Assembly (NCBI GenBank): GCA_030248295.1
Contig: JASANH010000776.1
Location: 1 to 64,000 of the forward strand
Direction: 5' to 3'
From: Mesodorylaimus sp. YZB2_4
Lineage: Eukaryota > Nematoda > Enoplea > Dorylaimida > Dorylaimidae
Length of the DNA: 64,000 nucleotides
The translations under genes were made by a program, and so were the position numbers. How positions within the stretch are numbered: position 1 is the first letter of the stretch; each line of letters starts with the position of its first letter. Shown here in pieces: positions 1 through 51,141 of the stretch. The notes below the pieces were generated by a model. The model saw only the letters and a program-made list of their open reading frames with translations, did no database searches and was not told where the DNA came from.

Positions 1-1710
1 TTGGACACTTTGGAAATAGGATCCACATGGTGTTGCAAGGAAGTCTGCCAAACAAGCAGTAATTTCATTCTAGAGCTCGGATCAGTCGCAACAAATGACG
101 GGCACGCCATATGGAGCGACTTGGACGATCTATCGAACTGCGAAGCGAATATGACAGCATGTGTGACCAAACATAACACTGTGGTTTGGAAAGAGAATGT
201 ATTTTCGCACTTTTGCCCATTGATATATAAAGAAGATGTCACGCTAAAAATAAACGACAAAGCGATCATTATTGACTCGCTACAAGCAGCGTTGACTTAC
301 GGTGGACCCAGCACACTATGCAATCAAACACACATGCATAAAACGATACAAGGTGTCTATCTACGATCACCTGCATTGACGCAACACATGACAAGCATAA
401 CAGCCTCAACTCGGCAAAAGCGACAAATGATCGATTCTCTTGACCCAGAAAACCCAAAACTGCAATACTTAGAACTCAGAATACTGGAACTCGAGCAAGC
501 GAACTTCCGCCAAGTTTGGATGGAACTCTGCAAAACAGCAGCCCGACAGTTACAGATCATCTGGCAACTACTTCGGTTGGATGCCACCCTAGGAGCAAGA
601 GCCCTATTGCAGCGCACGGACATTCACGCTGCCTTTGCAGGGGAAGCATTACTCATATGGCAATGTAAATCCGTAGCCGTAAATCGAAGTTCTCAAATAT
701 ATTGGTCATACAGGATCGATGATACCTGCTATGCAGAATTACCCGTGCGCATTGGCAATCTCACTTACTTTGTAATCCCCGGCACTAAAGACCTTACGAC
801 CCAACACACAACAATACCATGTGGTCATCACATAATCGGTAGGTTCCAGAAGAACACGCATTGGTATACCACAACCGGCCCAGCAGTAGTAACACCATTT
901 GTAATCGAACTCGCATGGAAAGACAAATCGCAACCGTTTCTGTTCGATCAACCGGCCTTGTTTCATGATCAACTACTGGGCGTCGAAAGCGTAATCCAAA
1001 TGCTAAGACACTATGCAACACATACAGGACGCATTGCACAAGCATTGGATAGAGTCATAAGATACACAGCTGATATGTCATGGAACCCCGACGCAGTGTA
1101 CCAAACTCTAAGTGGTGTAGGGAACGGCATAGGCAACGTTCTTACAGGAGCAGGCGACGGTATCGGAAAATTGTTTGGAGGTATAGCCAAAAATGGAGCG
1201 GAATCAGTAAATAAGCTGTTAGGAGGGCCACTGCATTCCATCATCACCACCGTCATAATCTTATTCGTTCTTGGAGCTATTATCTTCGCCATTTATTTGT
1301 TCTTACACTGCTATGGATGTAACAGAGACTGGCACACAGACGCGGATCACACCGACCCAGAACAAGAACCGCAGATCGCTGCATCAACACCGGATACACC
1401 GACATGCAGACTATCAGAAGGAGCCCAGACAAACTATGGACCCACGCCAGCACTAGTAGCGCACAAACCATCGGCCCCGGCGCTTCCGTCCTCAAACGAC
1501 TATAGCCATTGGAAAGGCCCAACGACACTTACCATCGCTGACTTAGTGGTCCAAATGAAACAACCAAAAAGCAAACCGCTTTACCCAGCCTTACACTGGC
1601 AGAGTCCCCGGGAGTCAGGAACACGTCAAGCACAAACTGTCGACGACGTATACAGAGTCTCAGTCTACAAAACGCGAAACCACAAACACCTTGGAGCGTC
1701 GTCACAATAA
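1..1710 (+). CDS. Envelope-like membrane glycoprotein ORF of a retroelement (5' end outside window)
   Basis: An open frame of at least 569 codons is already open at base 1, so the true start lies upstream. It is cysteine-rich in the N-terminal half and has a dibasic, furin-like RQKR site near residue 140. A predicted helical, leucine-rich stretch follows (about 150-200), then a second Cys-containing region. A glycine-rich segment repeating the pattern GxGxGIG (about 370-400) leads into a strong transmembrane helix near residues 415-437, and a polar cytoplasmic tail of about 130 residues closes the ORF. This is the layout of a type I viral fusion glycoprotein such as those captured by LTR elements from arthropod RNA viruses. 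The family assignment is inference, because no sequence search was possible. Its last bases overlap the beginning of the protease region in another frame, so it belongs to the same element as the pol remnant that follows. Confidence 0.6.
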   Translation: MDTLEIGSTWCCKEVCQTSSNFILELGSVATNDGHAIWSDLDDLSNCEANMTACVTKHNTVVWKENVFSHFCPLIYKEDVTLKINDKAIIIDSLQAALTYGGPSTLCNQTHMHKTIQGVYLRSPALTQHMTSITASTRQKRQMIDSLDPENPKLQYLELRILELEQANFRQVWMELCKTAARQLQIIWQLLRLDATLGARALLQRTDIHAAFAGEALLIWQCKSVAVNRSSQIYWSYRIDDTCYAELPVRIGNLTYFVIPGTKDLTTQHTTIPCGHHIIGRFQKNTHWYTTTGPAVVTPFVIELAWKDKSQPFLFDQPALFHDQLLGVESVIQMLRHYATHTGRIAQALDRVIRYTADMSWNPDAVYQTLSGVGNGIGNVLTGAGDGIGKLFGGIAKNGAESVNKLLGGPLHSIITTVIILFVLGAIIFAIYLFLHCYGCNRDWHTDADHTDPEQEPQIAASTPDTPTCRLSEGAQTNYGPTPALVAHKPSAPALPSSNDYSHWKGPTTLTIADLVVQMKQPKSKPLYPALHWQSPRESGTRQAQTVDDVYRVSVYKTRNHKHLGASSQ

Positions 1711-3956
1711 ATGGTAAACCAGGCGCTATGGCATTATGGGACACAGGTTCCTGCGTCACGTTGCTGGCGCATAATACATACAAATTCATGCAGTCGCTCG
1801 GAATCGCATACCCGCTATTCGCAGCACCAGACGGGCCAAAGGTAGCAAACGGTGAAGAACTCAAGTTAGCAGGAATGACAGCACTAGACATCGACATAGA
1901 AGGCCATAGGCAAACAATCGTTGCATTAGTCGCCGAAGACTTGGTGGTACCCGTAATCCTCGGAACTGACTTTCTGTATCGGTTTCCGTACGCAGCCTTC
2001 GATTTTAACAACAAAACACTGGACCTGGGTGGGGCATGGACTGTCGAGCTCAGAGGAGTCGAGCCAATAATCGACGAAGAAATTGCAAAAGTTGCGAATA
2101 CATTCACGATACCTGGGCAGCATACACAGTACTTTGTTTTGTCGGTCTCCGCCCCAAACGGCGCCACAATCATGTTTGAGCCCCATAGCAACCAGGACTC
2201 AATGGGCCTACGCTACGCCAGGACACTTTCAAAAGTCCAAGACGGCAAAATACTCGTCGAAATCACGAACGTCGGACGCACAGACACTACAGTCTACGCA
2301 AACAGTCGTATCGGTACATACAGTCATCACAATTACCAACGAAGCTGCGGTGCTAACCATTTCTGACGATCCAAATCACGAGCCGAAAATGACAAACAAT
2401 CTAACAGCACCTCAGCATCGAAAACGCGATAAGCCCGATTCGAAAGTCTACGCATGGCTAACACAAACTGTAAAATGGGATAAATCAAAAGCAACTGAGG
2501 AACAAAAAGAAACACTTTTGCAGATACTGGCAAAATTTCCATGGCTCTACGCACGCAGCAAAAACGACATTGGATTTTGCCCACTCGTTCAGCATGAGAT
2601 CGATACGGGCAATAACCCACCATTTCGACAGCCCCCACATCGATTACCACCAGTCTTACGCGAAGAAGTAGAAAAACAAATCAAGGAACAACTTGACTTA
2701 GGATGGATCAAGGTATCCGATAGCCCATACGCAAGCCCCATCGTGGTAGTCCCCAAGAAGGACAAAACTTCCGCATATGCTGCGACCTGAGACGTCTCAA
2801 CGCTCAAACGAAATTCAATGCATACCCAATGCCACGAATCGACGATCTGATCGATGCTGTCGGCGAAAGCCAGTACTTCACGTCGTTAGATCAAGCTTGG
2901 GGGTATCTCCAAATACCACTATCCGATAGTGCACAACAGAAAGCAGCATTTGTCACACACTCAGGCCACTATCAGCCAACGCGTATGGTTTTTGGACTAA
3001 CAGGGGCACCAGCCACCTTTCAGTCACTAATGGACCTCATCCTTGCTGGGATGCAATTCAAGACGTGTCTGACCTATTTGGACGATATTCTCATATTCGG
3101 CCGTACAATGCAAGAACACAGTGAGCGTCTGGAGGCCATCCTGGAACGGTTGTATGAAGCGGGACTGAAACTACGCCGTGAAAAATGTCAGTTCCTATGC
3201 GAAGAAGTGCGGTACCTCGGATATCAGATCAGCCAGAATGGTGTCCAGCCCGATCCCCAGAAAATCGAAAAGATTAAAACATGTGAGCCACCCAAAAACG
3301 CAACGGAGCTGCGATCATTCCTGGGGTTGCCAGTCTATTACAAACGTTTTATCAAAAATTTCGCATCGCTCGCTCGCCCACTGCACAAACTGCTATGCAA
3401 AAATACACCCTTCGAATGGGGGCAGCAACAAGACCAAGCATTCCAGAAAATCCAGGAGTCGCTCGTAAACGCGCCGATTTTAGCACATCCAAATTTCAAA
3501 AAACCATGGATTCTTCAAACAGATAGCTCAATCACGGGTTTGGGATCCGTACTATCCCAACCATACCCCGACGGGGATCACCCAGTGGCGCACTACGCAA
3601 GGGCACTGAACAAGCACGAAAGAAACTACGCCATATGGGAATTGGAAGCATTAGCGATCGTAGCCAGTTTGGAGTACTTCCGTACGCTATTATATGGACA
3701 AGAAATCACGGTCGTCACGGATAACCAGGCTCTTAAAAGCATCTTCGAAAAACAACACTCAAACCCACGATTGGCACGATGGGGTATGCTAGTACAGCAA
3801 TATAAGATCACGTTCCAATACCGACCTGGAAACAGAAATAATGCCGACCCCTTGTCACGACCACCAATATGCCCCACGGATCATCAGTCAGAAGAACCAA
3901 ATCAGGTCAGTGGCGGTGACATAGTGTTGACGATGAGATGCAGGTGTTTGTCATGA
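1687..3956 (+). pseudogene. Ty3/gypsy-like pol remnant: protease, reverse transcriptase, RNase H (frameshifted, no integrase)
   Basis: The order is aspartic protease (WDTGS motif near 1737), reverse transcriptase and RNase H. The RT palm motif YLDD lies near 3079, preceded by conserved SPIVVVPKK and LGYxIS-type segments, and the RNase H core has acidic residues near 3523 and TDNQAL near 3719. Domain order and motifs identify a Ty3/gypsy-type element. The frame changes twice: near 2322, where one base appears extra, and near 2770, where one base appears missing just before the conserved RICCDLRRL block. The ORF then stops at 3956 after the RNase H, and no integrase zinc finger or DDE core follows. 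The copy is therefore dead and 3'-truncated. No flanking LTR is visible because the left part is outside the window. Confidence 0.85.
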
Positions 3957-19418: not shown

Positions 19419-20983
19419 CTAACGGCCGTGGTGCTTGGAGACGTACTTCTTAAGCATGTCGACGACTTGTTCCATGGCCGATCGATTGGCGTTCTTCGAC
19501 ATGCACGCGTTGGCGATCTCGGCCAGCTCGGGCGGCATTCCACGCGGCGGGTCGACCCTCTTTCCTTCGTGCAGATACTTCGTCACGGCGCGCACGTCCA
19601 TCTTCTGGCTGTTGAAGTACTGCTCGTACGGATTGCGGCCCTTGTTGTACATCTGAAGGACAGGGTGTGCATTTCAGGCCAGCACGTCCAACAGAAGCAC
19701 TCACCTCGAGGATCACGATGCCGAAGCTCCACACGTCGCTCGATTTCGTCCACTCGCGCGTCTGCAACGGCTCAGGCGGCATGGAGAAGGCGGGCAGCTT
19801 CCGCTAGGTGGCGAGTTCGTGGTGATCCGGGAACATCCTCGACAGGCCAAAGTCGGCGATCTTCACGACTGTCCGGTTGCCAACCTTGTGCGCCAGGCAG
19901 TTGCGAGAAGCGATGTCCCTGAAAATACCGCCTTTGCAAACGATGGCGAAGCGTAGCCTCGGCTCACTGTGGATGATGTCGCGCTCGTGAAGGTATTGCA
20001 TGCCCTTGGCCGCGTCCAGTAAACCTCGCGCTTTGCCCTCTTCCGTCAGCTTGTCCTGTTCCACCAGCTTGTCCAGCGATCCGGCTGAAAAAGGGGCAAA
20101 AATGATATTTGAGGAAGCCTAGGGCCAGTCCGCTTACCATTGCAGTACTTGAGGATCAGTTGCAGCTGCGGCGCACCCGACGGTCCGGCACCGAACGAGA
20201 CTCCGCGGATGGTGCCGACGTTCTCGTAGTCGAGCAGGCTTATGATCTTCGCCTCGGCCAGGCACTCCTTGCGATCTTCCCCCGTCCCCCGCTGTCCCCC
20301 GTCAGGATCTTCACGGCCACCGTCTCCTCTTTTCCCTTCCGACCGGCCGGCAGCAGCTTCGCACGCCACACTTGGCCAAAGTTTCCCTGAAACGATGAGC
20401 GCATTAACTTATTTGGGGCTCCTTTAGTCCAACACGAGAACTCACCGCGCCCAGCTGCTTCTCGAGTTTCACGCGCTTCGGATCGATCAATTCGAACTAG
20501 ACCATGACCGGAGTCACCAACTCGCAATGGCCACCTTTTGTCACGGGATCCTGCGTGTGGTAGTAGTGGGCCAGCAGTCCTTGCAGAGTGTTGAGCACGG
20601 GGCCATCGAACTTGTACTCCTGAAACGCCAACATTCAAATCGGGACTGCTGTTAGGGCTGCCTTCGAAAGGCTTTGATCCCTCTGCACCCTCAGCATCAG
20701 TGCGAGTCACTTACCCGCTGTCGCTCGCCGAACTTGAAGTGCATGATTTCGTGATTGTGGTTCACTCTGAGCACAGTTCCTCCGTCCGATCCGCGACGCA
20801 GCAGGAAGTCGCCCTCTTTCTTCAGCAAATCGACCACGAATTGTAGCTGCAGGTCTCGGTAGAAGATCTTGTCGATGCCGAGCTGGAAGCGTAGAAATCG
20901 CACAAAAAATTGTCCAAGCTTTATCAGGTACTTACCGTCGCGTCCGACTTTTCGCTCGTGTTCGTGTGCGATGCATGCGACAT
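19419..20983 (-). pseudogene. SH2-tyrosine kinase (Fer/Fps-like), several lesions
   Basis: Seven exons: 20936-20983, 20715-20882, 20446-20619, 20138-20386, 19968-20084, 19705-19918 and 19419-19652. A 16-residue leader precedes an SH2 domain (LLKKEGDFLLRRGSDGG with the phosphotyrosine-binding Arg of FLLR; HFKFGERQR; LLAHYYHTQDPVT). The kinase domain follows: glycine loop NFGQVW, VAVKIL, catalytic RDIASRNCLA, KIADFGLSR and SDVWSFGIVILE. The order SH2-kinase without other domains is that of the Fer-like cytosolic kinases expanded in nematodes. Defects: TAG at 20497-20499 between SH2 and kinase, TAG at 19804-19806 in the activation segment, one base short in a G-rich run (about 20276-20305), and one base short at the 19968/19918 junction. 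All catalytic motifs survive, so decay is recent or the lesions are sequence errors. Confidence 0.8.
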
Positions 20984-28116: not shown

Positions 28117-29272
28117 ATGGCTAATTTTCGGTTGGTATTTGCCCTGGCATGGGCCACGGTGGCCGTTTCTTGTAAGTAATATTGTACTGCTAGGTGGCCT
28201 AGGCTGTTTCTTATGATTCTGCCATGAGGGCCTCGAGATATCTTTCCAAAGAGTGAAATGTCCACGCCTAATAGCTGAATATTTTTGCTTCAGATGCGGC
28301 CAAACTCATCGATCCAGCCAAATGTCAAAACGGATGCAAACTGGACGAAGATTGCGTCCTGTATTCCGAGTGCAAGCTGTTAGACGTTAAGGACCCGTGC
28401 GGTTTTTGCGTGTGCCGCGAGGGATATCGAGCTAAAGGCAACAGATGCCTGGAGATCGAGGGTTACAGTACAAGTACAACCAGCACTACAACTACCACGA
28501 CTACGGAGTCTACGACTACGAGCACGACTCCCCCTACCACAACTACCGAAGAGACTACAACGGAAGCGACCACCACAACCACCACGACCATTCCCACTAC
28601 GACAGGCACCACGACACAAGGGCCACCACCTATTCCAGACCCTGTTTACTGCCCGGACTTCGCATGCTCAGTTGGACCGCCAGCAGGCAACGACGACGAT
28701 CCAATGGTGGTCAGGAGCAGACTTGTCGAATCCAGCGACAACAATCCGAGCTGCAAACGTCAGTTGGTCATTCAACCTCGTCCGTGCAGCCTCCAAGGCG
28801 GTGGCGCCTGTTATGGTATCTACTGTCTCAACGTCAGCCCTGGCAACGACTATTGCATTTGTCCCTACTATAAAACTGACCGGCAGTGCGCTGTTGATAA
28901 GCCAGGGTCGTGTGATGCGGCCGCAGGTACAAGAGTCTCTCCCTGACTTCTGCCACTGTTAATATACCCCATTCCTTTTTAGGCTCTGTTTCCGCTGGCT
29001 TCACTCAACTACAAAATAAGCGTTTGCGAAATCCTTCTAACAAAGACAATGGAAGTGTTTATGGCCGTCACTTCGCTCCTACTCTGAGTGACTGTATCAA
29101 ATTGTGCCAATGGTCGCAGGGCGCATGCCGTTCTGTTAACTATGGTCCTATTGGTGGTGTGAACGTGTGCGAAATGATGAGCACAGCTGCCACTGATAAG
29201 AATTTGTTATCTAAGTGGTTGGAACCAGCTGAAGGTTGGCAATACGCCCAGGTGGCCCAGGCGTTCTTGTGA
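28117..29272 (+). CDS. Secreted Cys-rich / Thr-mucin / PAN-like protein, paralogue A
   Basis: Exons 28117-28171, 28294-28926 and 28983-29272 give 325 residues. A signal peptide (MANFRLVFALAWATVAVS) is cut by intron 1. A compact cysteine module follows (CQNGCKLDEDCVLYSECKLL, then CGFCVCREGY), the pattern of EB/antistasin-like inhibitors. About 60 residues of Thr, Ser, Pro and Glu come next, a mucin-like O-glycosylated stalk. A second cysteine region (CYGIYCLNVSPGNDYCICPY) precedes a C-terminal PAN/Apple-like domain: SDCIKLCQWSQGACRSVNYG, then VNVCEM and EGWQYAQ. PAN domains bind proteins or sugars. Probably a cuticle, gut or gland surface protein. Its paralogue at 34387-35558 has the same exon lengths within three bases and the same total length. 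Confidence 0.85.
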
Positions 29273-34386: not shown

Positions 34387-35558
34387 TTAGATTGCGGGTC
34401 CCACTTGAGCATATTGCCAACCATCGGCCTTTTCCAACCACGAGGCCAATAAGTTCTTTTCGGTGGCGGCGATACTTAGCATTTCGCACACATTGGCACC
34501 ACTGATTTTACCAAAGTTGACTGATCGACAAGATCCTTCGGACCATTGACATAATTTGATGCAATCGGTGAGAGTGGCAGCAAAGTGGCGACCGTAAATG
34601 CTGCCGTTATCCTTGTCGGAGGGATTGCGTAAACGACGGTTTTGCAACTGGGCATTGCCAGTTGGAAGTTGACCTTAAATGGAAGAGCCATGGTCAGGCC
34701 GATGTGCACGCCTATCCTGCTGCCCCATGAGGCTTTTCTGGGCCGCTATTTGCAAACCACACCACCTAGCCACACCATTTAACCAATGTAAGAGCAGTGT
34801 GTCACGCACCTGTAGCCGAAGAGCACTTTCCAGGTTTGTCCACAGCACACTGACGGTCGACTCGGTAATAGGGGCAGACGCAGTAGTCATTGCCGGCCGA
34901 CTCTGTCAGACAGTAAGCTCCGTAGCACGAGCCACCACCTTTCATATTGCACTTGCGAGGAGGGATGACCACTTGTCGCTTGCAGCTAGGATTATTAGCT
35001 GCGATGAGTGCGCTGCGGACTTGCATAGGATCATCCTCCTTATTCTCCACTGGCGCAATAGCACTGCAGTCGTAATCTGAGCAAGTGACTGGCACTGGAG
35101 CGGGGGGAGTCGGGGGCTGTGTGGTGGTCCCCGTCGTGGTCGTAACTGTTGTAGTCCTGGTAGTGGCTTCGGTCGTCGAGGTCGTAGTTGACTCCTCGGC
35201 GATCGTTGTAGTCGTGGTAGTGGACGGGATCGTAGTTGTGGTCGTGCTCGTGCTCGTGGTAGTGGTCGAGTATCCCTTGACCGGATTACATTTATTACCT
35301 TGAGCCTTGAATCCTTGTTCGCAAATGCAGAACCCGCAGGTACCACCATCATTCAAGAGCACACATCTGGAATTTTTCGGACACTGGTCATCAATTTGGC
35401 ACCCATTAGGGCACTTGGTCGGATCGAACAAAGGTTTAGTCGCATCTAAAAAACATCCCAATCCGCACTGATCTCTTATTCTCCGCCCACCTCGCGCACT
35501 TACACGTCCAGCAGATCAGAGCAGACAAGAATGCGACAACGATCAAACATTGAGCCAT
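34387..35558 (-). CDS. Secreted Cys-rich / Thr-mucin / PAN-like protein, paralogue B
   Basis: Exons 35504-35558, 34810-35445 and 34387-34673 give 325 residues, the same total as paralogue A. Domains run in the same order: signal peptide (CLIVVAFLSALICW), cysteine module (CPNGCQIDDQCPKNSRCVLL, then CGFCICEQGF), a Thr-rich stalk with TTTTI/TTTS runs, a middle region (CYGAYCLTESAGNDYCVCPY) and a PAN-like domain (DCIKLCQWSEGSCRSVNFG; EKADGWQYAQ). Intron phases are identical, so A and B arose by duplication and now lie in opposite orientation 5.1 kb apart. The stalk differs most, as expected for mucins. Confidence 0.85.
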
Positions 35559-46987: not shown

Positions 46988-49900
46988 TCACGCAAACGAT
47001 GGCCCCGAAATGGGGCTACTTGCATTTTCTCTTTCGATGATTGTAATGGCATTGTAATAGGCAGCAATGTCGACAACGTGCCCATCATCCACGGCCTGAA
47101 TAAGGTTGGACAAAGTATGACGCAATGCACTAAAGTCAGGTCTCTCGTCTGGATTCCGATGCCAGCAGGTTTTCATAAAATCATAACTGAAATGAAAACA
47201 GTTTTATGCCACTTTTAGTGCGGAGACCTTGACATTAAAAATGATTGGACTGGTTTTGAACAGTGGGCGTGGACAGTTGTACTAAAGACGATATCATTAT
47301 TTAAAAGGGCGATTTGGGTTGCAGTTTCGAAGAATGTCGTAACTTTTAGACTTCGCCTGAATGCAGTTCTAAATTCCCCTTCTTTCATTCTCTGATACTG
47401 GAGTTGATAGTCGCCTATTTGGTTTTATAGTCAGCCCGACACGCTATGGACACCCGTATTCCAGTCTCGCAGTCATTCTGAGACATATCCACAAATAAAG
47501 ACACATACGTACAAAAACTTGAGCCTTGAACGAGATTTGAACCCGGGTCTCTGGGATCAGCAGTCTAGTGTGCAACTATGAATGCATACCAAGACTCTCA
47601 GGACCGCATGTCCATACAAGCAAGTGTGAGCGGACATGGTCGCCTAACGTATCCCTTAATTTTCCGGTCAGTCTATTTCTACCCACTTACATGATATCGG
47701 GGCACGATTTCGGTTTGGTTAAGCGCCCACCACTCTCCAAAAACTGCCGCAATTCTATGAGCATAATATCCTTATAAGGCTGCTTGCCTCGTGTAAGCAA
47801 CTCCCAAATGACAACCCCGTAGGACCACTGAAAATGTACTGTATGACTTTCGCAAATTGTAGACCACCCCCATGAACTCCTTACCACATCACTTTTGTTA
47901 GTCCACTCTAACTTGAGTATGGTTTCTGGTGCCATCCACCTGACTGGTAGCTCGAATGTTCGCGTAGCGTGATACGAGTCCGTCTCGCTGATGTCACGAC
48001 ACAGGCCAAAGTCGGAGATTTTGACAGTGAGAGAAGAATCCAGCCTATATGACACAGTACAGTACTGGTAGCGGACTAATTTGATATTGCCTTGTTACTT
48101 ACATGCAATTACGTGCAGCTAAATCTCGATGGACTAATTTCAGCTTATGCAGGTAGTTCATTCCGTCCGCGATTTGGATACAAAAATCCAAAATACGACG
48201 AATTGTCAGCTCCTGAGAGACATGATAGCAAAATACTGTAGGTGATAAGGTGACGGGAATTATGCATGTAATTTAGTCCTGTGAGTTGTGCGCTATTGCT
48301 GCTCGTGTTGATGATATCTGTGTGATCATGTTTATTCTGGGCAGCTCTTGCGCTGACATGAGTGATGTAGTAGGTGTGTTTGGCCCGTGAATAAAATAAT
48401 AGTGCTGTTGTGGAGTGTTTTTAGGCCCCCCGCTCCGCGCGGTACCTTCTCCCCTGTAGGGCTATCCAGCCTATCACAATATCATAGTCATTTTGATTAT
48501 GAAGTATCACAGCATTAAACCAGGGGCTGTACACTCTGACCAGGGGCCTTCCGTACTGATTGTGATTGAGGACACCAAACACTACTTGCCTCTGCGCTTC
48601 ATCAACACTAAACACACAGTTATGTTCTGTAGAGGCTCGTCTGGCAATCGGTTCTCTGCACAGAGCCAGCAGCTGGATGTATGGACAGAGTTGCAAGATT
48701 CGATGGCTGCTGTGGGTTTCTGGCTTTGGGACAAAAGCTCCACCATCCTCCCTCGACTTACATTCTTCGAATCAGAGACGAAAGTGAGCAAGTTGTCCTT
48801 TTGCATAAATGGCAGTACGATCATAGGCAACTGATTCAAAAAGCAAATTCCTGTCAGGTGCAGGACGTTCTGATGACGAAGATTCTCCATGCGACGGCCT
48901 TCCAAAATGAACTGGCGGACATTGGTAGCTCCATCTGAAGGAAATAAGTTAGCTGGAAAAACATAAAGGACAAGACAAGCTTGCCATGTAAACGCTTGAC
49001 CGCCACTTCTGATACTTGGCCGTCCTTTTTCACAATTGCTCGTTGAACGATGCCGAAATGACCTGCGAGCGAGAGATTATTGTGCCCTCATTTACGTTGT
49101 GATTGTGAGTTCAGACCCTCTACAGACATCAGTGAGACCCCGCAAAGACGATTCCCAATCATCTCGACCTAGGCTTGTGAGATGGTTACGGCTAAATTTA
49201 CAGTTAAAATATTTTTCCTAGCACATCAGGTCAGTTTACCTTCTCCAATAATCTCTTTGAACTCGAGGTGCTCCACACTGATAATGTACTTTTGGTCCAC
49301 CATATTCTTCAAGTCGGCGTACAGAGCAGCATCGACCATTCCGATGTACTCGTCCTTATTTTTACATATGGGGCTTGTACCTGAAGGAGGAACTGCTGGT
49401 CCTAACCTGGTCCTTGCCCATCAATACTGTGCTGAACTTACTGACGGCGTCGCTACTCGAAGTGCTCAAATGTCTCGTATCCAAGGCCAGTCTTAATTTG
49501 TCTGCTTCCTTTTTTCGACGCCAGAAGAACACAATCAATGATATCATAAGGGCGAAGATAAGGAGGATACCGACTCCTATGCCGACCCCCATCTTTATGG
49601 CACGCTTGTCAGCCCTCTCCTTTTCGCTTTCTTTCGTCTCGACCTCCTCAGTCGACTCGGCTTCAGTCGGAGCGCAGTCAGGATTCAATGCTCGTGCCAC
49701 AGCCGGTTTTAGGGCAATGCGATCAGCATCGATTAATCCCCAATTGGCTTTCTGATCAGAGGCGTTCGGGTAAAGCCAAAGGGGATCGAATGCGTATTGG
49801 TAAAAGTATCGAATACCAGTTTTGTGATGAGCGCCACAAATGAGGTGGGCTATTAAATCTGCTTGGTCAGTAGCATTACCAACTATCACATCAGGATTGC

Positions 49901-51141
49901 CTTTCTTATTCGAGCCACTCGTATAGGGAGAAGTTCCCTTGCCTGCCGATGGCCACCCAGCACCGGCTATGTACACTCGTTTCACTGTATCATCGATGCT
50001 CTGCGAGATACGTTTAATGTAATTGAATGTGTCGACCACTCGAGTAAAGCCTAGGACGTGGGACCGGTCAGCTTCCACATTTACTGTTGCGATATAAGCG
50101 TCCAAATAAGGTGTCCATGGCTGATCGAATAGAAGATTGTACACGTCGGCTGTCGTAGTCACATTAATGCGAGGGCTTGTCGAATTAGTGACCAGGTTCT
50201 TGACAAGCTTTAGAGCATCGATTACAAAATCAGGTTCCTTCAAGTACCTCTGTAAGTCGTTGTAGCCGACACTTATAGCCGAGATATGGGATATGTTGGA
50301 TCCATCTGCAACAAAGTTGGCATAGAATTTTGGTGGATTGCCATGTACTGATGGCCCATCGTTCCACCTCGGGGAGTGTTTTGCAGGCCTGAGCAGGTGC
50401 TCATTTCGGTAGGATTAAGAAATACTGTAGAAACAGAGCAAAAAACAGGAGCCCGAGCGGGAGCCGAGCTCGCCCCCTGAGGAGTACTGGTCCAGTGCAC
50501 CACCATAATTGCCGCGTTTTAGACAAATTTTCAGATGGAGGCGTTAGGTGGTATTCTCAAGAATAGGTGGCACGCGCACAATATGTTCAGGTAGATAAAG
50601 CGACTAAGAATAAGGCTCATACAATGCATACTCGTCCTTTCCACAAATGGAACCACTCATCCGCACACACCTTACCAGTGAAAACTCCTTCCAATTCTTC
50701 ATACTGTCGTCGAAATTCCGTCTTATTACGTAATGATAATCCGAGGATTAACTTTTTTGCTAAAGCGGACGTTGCTCCGACAATGATCTGTCCAAATTGG
50801 CAATACATTTCGGGCACATATATCTGATGAGCGATTCGAGAAATATTTCTCAGATCCTCCATCACGTCAGTCTCTGACACGCTCAAACAGTCGGTCGATC
50901 GACGGAAGGGCACGTAAGTCACGCCCCATAATGGCTCCTTGAACCAAACCATACTCTCATTTAGTTTCACATTGCTGGCTGATACGAAATCAAAAGAATA
51001 ATGGTCATACAAGGATGAATAATACGAATTGAAGGGGGCAGGGGCCCACGGTGGGACGATGCTGGACTGAGTGTGGATACCCGTAATCAGTAATTGCCAT
51101 AAGTAAACACAGCACAGTTGCCATCGATAAAAATAACTCAT
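46988..51141 (-). CDS. Receptor tyrosine kinase with GH17 pseudo-glucanase ectodomain
   Basis: Nine exons: 50671-51141, 49442-50388, 49240-49380, 48985-49062, 48762-48934, 48103-48212, 47885-48044, 47691-47827 and 46988-47186. They give about 804 residues. Signal peptide 1-25. Residues 72-390 are a GH17 fold ([71 protein letters not shown]). The acid/base Glu (family VGNE or VGSED) is Asn here, and the nucleophile Glu (family ETGWPS) is Gly, so no hydrolysis is expected. TM 423-446 is followed by RRKK. Kinase: GEGHFGIV, VAVKRL (K542), FILEGRR (E557), [38 protein letters not shown]; all catalytic residues are present. One extra base in an A4 run (plus 50328-50331) shifts exon 2; removing it restores every phase. 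Intron 4 is GC-AG. Confidence 0.85.
47520..47615 (-). repeat. tRNA-like SINE fragment in an intron of the receptor kinase
   Basis: On the minus strand a B box (cccgggttcaaatctcg) follows ctagactgctgatcccagaga, the look of a tRNA anticodon-to-T arm. About 45 bases before it is a poor A box (ttggtatgcattcatagttgc). No proper acceptor stem closes, so it is not a functional tRNA. It differs from the SINE family above. Confidence 0.45.

Follow-up and report, generated by a model that had tools for sequence, protein, structure and literature searches.

Animal receptor tyrosine kinases (RTKs) are activated by ligand-driven pairing and autophosphorylation and, to our knowledge, draw on a limited set of ectodomain types. 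The GH1-like repeats of the klothos lie in a chain separate from the kinase, the kinase of tobacco CHRK1 is of the plant Ser/Thr type, and GH17 domains are rare in animals. Here, we describe a gene predicted in a 64,000-nucleotide stretch of DNA from the nematode Mesodorylaimus sp. YZB2_4 (contig JASANH010000776.1, positions 1 to 64,000 of the forward strand, hereafter the window), which would encode an RTK with a GH17-derived ectodomain and which has three receptor paralogues in the same genome.

According to the cited passages, Met receptors possess a truncated plexin-type ectodomain consisting of Sema plus PSI (PMC6374515), and the C. elegans receptor SVH-2 is called Met-like (PMC5161311). 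Alpha- and beta-klotho are presented, in the cited part of PMC7828330, as inactive GH1-like repeats within FGF receptor complexes, binding FGF19 and FGF21. The nematode receptors would resemble the klothos in that a dead glycosidase binds the ligand for a receptor complex with a tyrosine kinase, but they differ by the family (GH17 instead of GH1) and by the presence of GH17 domain and kinase in one chain. Such a single-chain layout, with a glycosidase-family domain outside and a kinase inside, is described for tobacco CHRK1 in a passage of PMC5485988, although that domain belongs to GH18 and the protein to a plant, with a separate origin. In the whitefly Bemisia tabaci, a GH17 protein is likewise found in an animal; the cited part of PMC11800479 tells it as an exceptional, horizontally acquired case, in which the enzyme is active, of plant origin, retains both glutamates and has no kinase. 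The GH17 beta-1,3-glucanases and glucanosyltransferases themselves (e.g., Rhizomucor 4wtp) share the fold of the nematode ectodomain and match it over full length in a profile comparison, whereas the window protein lacks the catalytic residues and is predicted to be a membrane receptor rather than an enzyme. As the original prediction had supposed, no paper pairing a receptor tyrosine kinase with a GH17 or glucanase ectodomain was found in the open-licence PMC literature, and the GH17-headed RTK is a new ectodomain class, not found described in animals.

Gene model and a family of four receptors

The gene is located on the minus strand of the window (46988..51141, ATG to TGA). Its nine exons are phase-consistent, as originally claimed, and join in the splice model into a frame that is open over 775 codons; a spliced-alignment script recovers the identical nine exons, which is an arithmetic check only since the query was the same protein. 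Exon 1 (50676..51141), modelled with support from the relative P0002, encodes an N-terminus that is signal-peptide-like by eye and the start of the GH17-like domain. This N-terminus is hydrophobic by eye, and a hydropathy scan gave no N-terminal peak above 1.5 in any sequence scanned. Exon 2 (49442..50305), supported by the relative P0001, encodes the remainder of the GH17-like domain, an acidic linker, the transmembrane (TM) helix and the start of the juxtamembrane region; its acceptor, which lies just before 50305 and is preceded by a pyrimidine-rich tract, keeps the frame open and gives a joint that agrees with the C3 paralogue introduced below. The GH17-like domain comprises a first stretch at residues 69-155 (50676..50937), found through the genome search, and a second up to residue 366 (49674..50305), for which the predicted fold matches GH17 structures. 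The GH17-type blocks that had drawn attention to the gene are present in the translation. A single TM helix at residues 398-416 (49524..49580, by arithmetic) stands out as a hydropathy peak of 2.98 and is followed by RRKK, as had been noted; the three receptor paralogues and P0001 have peaks of 2.3-3.0.

The intracellular part begins with exon 3 (49240..49380), which contains the juxtamembrane tyrosines Tyr455, Tyr464 and Tyr475, between the TM helix and the kinase, and the kinase start. Exon 4 (48985..49062) carries the glycine loop and the VAVK lysine, exon 5 (48762..48934) the helix C region, exon 6 (48103..48212) the catalytic loop HRDLAARN, exon 7 (47885..48044) the DFG motif and the activation loop with Tyr635, and exon 8 (47691..47827) the C-lobe. 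Exons 3 to 8 are placed by the splice model together with a comparison of kinase introns, and exon 9 (46988..47186), placed by the splice model, encodes the kinase end, a C-tail with Tyr753-Tyr754 in a Tyr-Tyr-Asn motif (753-755) and the stop. The kinase domain is complete, as predicted from the letters (PF07714, residues 482-735, E 2e-87), and the catalytic motifs, among them the glycine loop, are present in the window protein and in the three paralogues. Seven introns are GT-AG and the one following exon 4 is GC-AG.

A search of the whole genome with the ectodomain retrieved five loci, namely the window, C163, C139 twice (C139a and C139b) and C3. Searches with two other members returned the same five, one of them adding a weak match on C110 (E 0.6). 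In C163 and both C139 loci, a GH17-like exon continues into a TM helix, and tyrosine kinase exons follow it on the same strand, with PF07714 E-values of 8.4e-84 for C163 and 1.7e-84 and 1.3e-85 for the two C139 kinases. The GH17-RTK layout recurs in three further genes of the same genome and is more than chance, which extends the initial claim of an RTK with a GH17-derived ectodomain in an animal genome to four genes. C139a and C139b face each other, with ends about 9 kb apart by arithmetic. Identity between paralogues amounts to 56-62% in the kinases and 30-34% among the four ectodomains, as one would expect had the heads come to serve different ligands.

The positions and phases of six kinase introns are common to all four GH17-RTK genes, and five of the six are also found in the non-GH17 receptors L044 and L053. 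Because the window kinase served as the query for all, this comparison leans towards agreement; the exon lengths 110, 160 and 137 nevertheless recur with their own splice sites. The script models of C163 and C139b place an extra intron in the GH17 exon, and that of C163 also inserts, ahead of the juxtamembrane exon, another one of 43 bases; these are regarded as artefacts, since the reading frame of the GH17 exon has no interruption.

The fifth locus (L001, G000:C3:531551-532372, minus strand) differs in that the gene stops right after the GH17 domain and has no TM helix. Its domain is 29% identical to the window ectodomain (E 4e-31). A Cys-rich, signal-like frame lies upstream of it. Its product may still act as an enzyme, or else as a ligand or decoy.

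Relatives outside this genome were sought in a set of 5.8 billion proteins. A profile search yielded two matches (P0001 and P0002) among 5593 candidates, with a length window of 0.55-1.75 of 298 amino acids that places full-length receptors beyond reach; residues 1-460 of the window protein gave no match at E<=0.001 among at most 8000 candidates. Both searches leave room for distant receptors in other nematodes. P0001 and P0002 come from the same source and from contigs of 7804 bases each, most likely one and the same contig. P0002 corresponds to the N-terminus and the first half of the GH17 domain, P0001 to its second half and the TM helix, which is retained; both are 60-62% identical to the window gene and end, by eye, where it has introns. 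The C3 gene has database kin of its own, P0004 and P0005, with 86-87% identity.

GH17 ancestry and lost catalytic residues

Of the two observations named originally as refuting the GH17 part, one was made and the other was not: the Pfam GH17 family (PF00332) has no match to the window exons, nor at E<=1 to the window protein or the three receptor paralogues, but the ectodomain has a GH17-type fold prediction and a profile match. The C3 paralogue does pass the Pfam GH17 cut-off (33.2 versus 28.2 bits). Compared with PDB sequences, the window ectodomain matches 4wtr with an E-value of 4.8e-5 from the single sequence, and a profile of five sequences matches 4wtp with an E-value of 9.9e-21. The fold comparison points the same way, since the predicted ectodomain matches GH17 structures and adopts a TIM-barrel of the GH17 type, which is what the original prediction had anticipated. 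Among the structures concerned, potato 3ur8 and barley-type 1ghs are GH17 enzymes. In plain Foldseek, only 6fcg passes an E-value of 0.001, 1ghs is at rank 11 and the other listed rows are mostly other glycoside hydrolases; 4wtp is not within the best 50 rows and tops the list only in the second look by VIA. A structure prediction made from two sequences only was unusable (pLDDT 34). Hence, the window ectodomain is GH17-derived as judged from the C3 paralogue, the PDB sequence matches and the fold comparison, and not from a direct Pfam match.

All 108 reference GH17s have the acid/base glutamate, compared with none of the four receptors (N, L, L and T at this column). The nucleophile glutamate is present in 107 of the 108, the exception being P0003, which has the Ala of the crystallised active-site mutant, compared with one of the four receptors (G, D, D and E). 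The single Glu, in C139b, is ambiguously aligned, two alignments using different stretches of the protein. In the window protein, alignment places Asn171 (codon 50259..50261) at the acid/base column and Gly270 (codon 49962..49964) at the nucleophile column, both codon positions being obtained by arithmetic. The relative P0001 also has Gly at the nucleophile column and no residue at the acid/base column, while P0002 has a gap at the nucleophile and an out-of-frame, unreliable R at the acid/base place. The C3 gene and its kin P0004 and P0005 keep the nucleophile Glu, and all three have Asp at the acid/base place.

The loss extends beyond the two catalytic positions. Conserved GH17 columns were defined as the 32 that are conserved in at least 85% of the 108 references, and 15 of them are changed in the window protein. 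The Tyr-Trp pair (columns 534-535) reads YI, MG, QN and FF in the four receptors, the conserved Arg (column 370) is replaced by Y, Y, Q and Q, and the Trp of column 402 by S, P, P and S; we take these columns to be groove-lining residues. The GH17-derived head is, by these alignments, a pseudo-enzyme that has lost its catalytic residues. The proposal that the ectodomain senses beta-glucan is unsupported so far, with both catalytic positions and nearly half of the conserved columns altered.

Kinase kinship, origin and proposed mechanism

The best single-domain PDB match of the kinase is MET; only an EGFR construct with two domains ranks higher, its score being added up over both copies. In a 19-row kinase tree, for which one strand was scanned and 4 of 16 extra loci were kept, the four GH17-RTKs form a clade (100/98) that groups with L044 and L045 (91/87) and falls in a set also holding L047, L053 and human MET (89/96). 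In a 30-row tree, for which both strands were scanned and 15 of the 16 loci kept, the four again group together (99/99), L053 pairs with MET (98/94) and L044 is the nearest non-GH17 row by path. Neither tree includes the partial locus L046 or loci that are fragments of the same genes. Kinase identity to the GH17-RTKs is 49-55% for L044 and 43-47% for MET. The GH17-RTKs resemble MET-type RTKs (human MET and RON) by the PDB kinase match, the 19-row tree and the introns shared via L044 and the MET-pairing L053; they differ by their GH17-derived ectodomain where MET-type RTKs have Sema/PSI/IPT, and no Sema or PSI family is found in the 775-amino-acid window protein among Pfam matches at E<=1. Taken together, the GH17-RTK kinases are probably MET-related, which is supported and not settled. 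L044 (G000:C14:386000-394000) and L045 (G000:C487:33500-43400) share an ectodomain of their own, with a piece that is 52% identical and Cys modules that recur around a CGWC core. Although the cysteine spacing is PSI-like by eye, Sema and PSI parts are not claimed for these two receptors, since Pfam and PDB gave no match.

The GH17 tree was built from 110 of 120 database matches (10 shorter than 240 amino acids were left out, as were P0001 and P0002) and the five sequences of this genome, with branch support from the Shimodaira-Hasegawa-like approximate likelihood ratio test (SH-aLRT) only. In it, the receptor domains of all four genes cluster (98) and, joined with three secreted domains (99), stand apart from 108 other rows; the program warns of long branches meeting. 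A single GH17 entry into this lineage, with a later split into secreted and receptor lines, would account for this grouping. A gain by horizontal transfer is plausible by analogy with the whitefly GH17. The profile used to collect the GH17 sequences included a Rhizomucor sequence, which biased the sampling to Mucoromycota. A specific fungal or plant donor has so far found no support, the nematode domains standing apart from the 108 references.

As for the host, the nematode cuticle collagen N-domain is matched 133 times in the genome and the transthyretin-like family 27 times; both families are nematode markers and point to a nematode. Neither was matched in 14 control genomes, a weak control as these are probably not animals. 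C3 carries collagens and transthyretin-like genes, and C139 transthyretin-like genes. The SL1 core has no match with up to 2 mismatches, and the SL2 family gave none either, nor did its controls.

Our preferred explanation, to which we give good though not overwhelming credence, is that the four nematode RTKs unite a kinase of probable MET kin with a catalytically dead GH17 ectodomain acting as a ligand-binding head, more likely, as in the klothos, for a non-glucan ligand. A receptor kinase gene, probably of MET kin, would have gained a GH17 barrel as its ectodomain; the barrel would then have lost its catalytic residues and part of the conserved groove while serving as a ligand-binding head. 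A ligand other than beta-glucan is favoured because a glucanase scaffold without catalytic residues resembles the klothos, and it may more readily be a protein or another non-glucan molecule than a laminarin-type glucan. We infer that the receptors are expressed, bind a ligand, dimerise and signal: ligand binding would pair the receptors, and the kinase would phosphorylate itself at the activation-loop Tyr635 and then at the juxtamembrane and C-tail tyrosines, which may in turn recruit SH2 proteins.

Alternative explanations and wider meaning

The head could instead still bind beta-1,3-glucan, callose or a fungal-wall oligosaccharide and report the presence of fungi or plants. Its GH17 ancestry and its best PDB matches, which are beta-1,3-glucan enzymes, fit this idea, as do the sugar-binding inactivated GH18 homologues mentioned in the cited part of PMC7828330, and diverged heads with gene duplication would suit the recognition of foreign material. 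However, the Tyr-Trp pair and the Arg and Trp columns are changed in all four receptors and the secreted GH17 relatives also lack both Trp columns, so that we hold a glucan or wall sensor to be rather unlikely. An active membrane glucanase that cuts its substrate and signals through a kinase tail could appeal to the ambiguous Glu of C139b, but it is barely credible given that no receptor has the acid/base Glu and that Gly occupies the nucleophile column both in the window gene and in its relative. Equally hard to credit is a contamination or assembly chimera fusing fungal DNA to an animal kinase. The rarity of GH17 in animals would fit it, as would C85 and C163, which have no collagen or transthyretin-like match among the matches listed. 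Four intron-bearing loci on three contigs and the nematode-type genes on C139 and C3 argue against it, and no close fungal or bacterial GH17 was found: P0004 and P0005 aside, none of the best 120 of 504 matches exceeds 34% identity to the C3 domain. It is very improbable, too, that a gene for a membrane-bound GH17 protein was wrongly joined to an adjacent tyrosine kinase gene. Exon 2 stays open to a stop about 80 bases beyond the proposed donor, but the gap between the TM exon and exon 3 is an intron of 61 bp with a GTAAGT donor and a TTCAG acceptor, and GH17 and kinase are juxtaposed at three other loci. In addition, no kinase was detected in the 9.9 kb near the C3 GH17 gene, where spliced alignment scored 42 and 63 on the two strands, compared with 42 for one shuffle and 753-840 for the three receptor paralogues.

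Several observations weigh against the preferred MET-kin receptor with a non-glucan ligand. The single gene joining ectodomain and kinase is predicted from genomic sequence alone. The intron after exon 4 has a GC donor (48983-48984, minus strand) where the three paralogues have GT; another GC donor occurs in C139b, where it belongs to the first kinase intron. The P0001/P0002 relative is known from its ectodomain and TM half only, the kinase half not being seen. In the 30-row tree, the deeper kinship, i.e., the grouping of the GH17-RTKs with L044/L045 and MET, is supported below 80. Finally, the window protein retains 17 of the 32 conserved GH17 columns, a cleft that is not wholly erased and that also speaks for a glucan sensor; loss of the enzyme residues would be compatible with glycan binding.

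Some features near the paralogues were observed in passing. Over 1.4 kb, C1042 (L046, G000:C1042:1-9990) and the 3′ end of the C163 gene are 99.6% identical; C1042 may be an allelic contig or a partial duplicate. Next to the C163 receptor gene, and extending in part past it, the minus strand of L009 has a 392-amino-acid frame that is reverse-transcriptase-like by eye. Adjoining the C139b receptor, a 341-amino-acid frame (L011:1950-2975, minus strand) has repeated Cys modules and a hydrophobic end, and matches no Pfam family at E<=0.01. Elsewhere in the window, retroelement-like frames including a reverse transcriptase by eye occupy 1-3953 (plus strand) together with a frame matching the Monjiviricetes fusion glycoprotein family PF24664 (E 3.5e-19), and another frame encodes an MSP domain (PF00635, E 2.9e-9). 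Pieces of another tyrosine kinase gene, which we take to be FER-like, lie at 19453-20710 (minus strand); many genome matches over a similar kinase stretch (query 138-211, about 44%) suggest that its kin form a large expanded family. Two diverged Cys-rich frames with a Thr-rich, mucin-like middle lie in opposite orientation at 28275-28943 (plus strand) and 34805-35515 (minus strand), with mucin matches under the Pfam cut-off.

The four-gene class with a glycosidase-derived head adds an ectodomain type to those of animal RTKs and is an example, in a single animal lineage, of a conserved kinase whose ectodomain was exchanged. It would be a single-chain counterpart to the klotho/FGFR pairing and a case of a possibly foreign enzyme turned receptor, with testable ligands. 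A bolder version, which we consider unlikely, is that the lineage captured and disarmed a glucanase, added a MET-type kinase and expanded the product to four genes for sensing fungal or plant wall material; if true, the nematode would sense microbes or food at the cell surface with a receptor made out of a glucanase-type enzyme.

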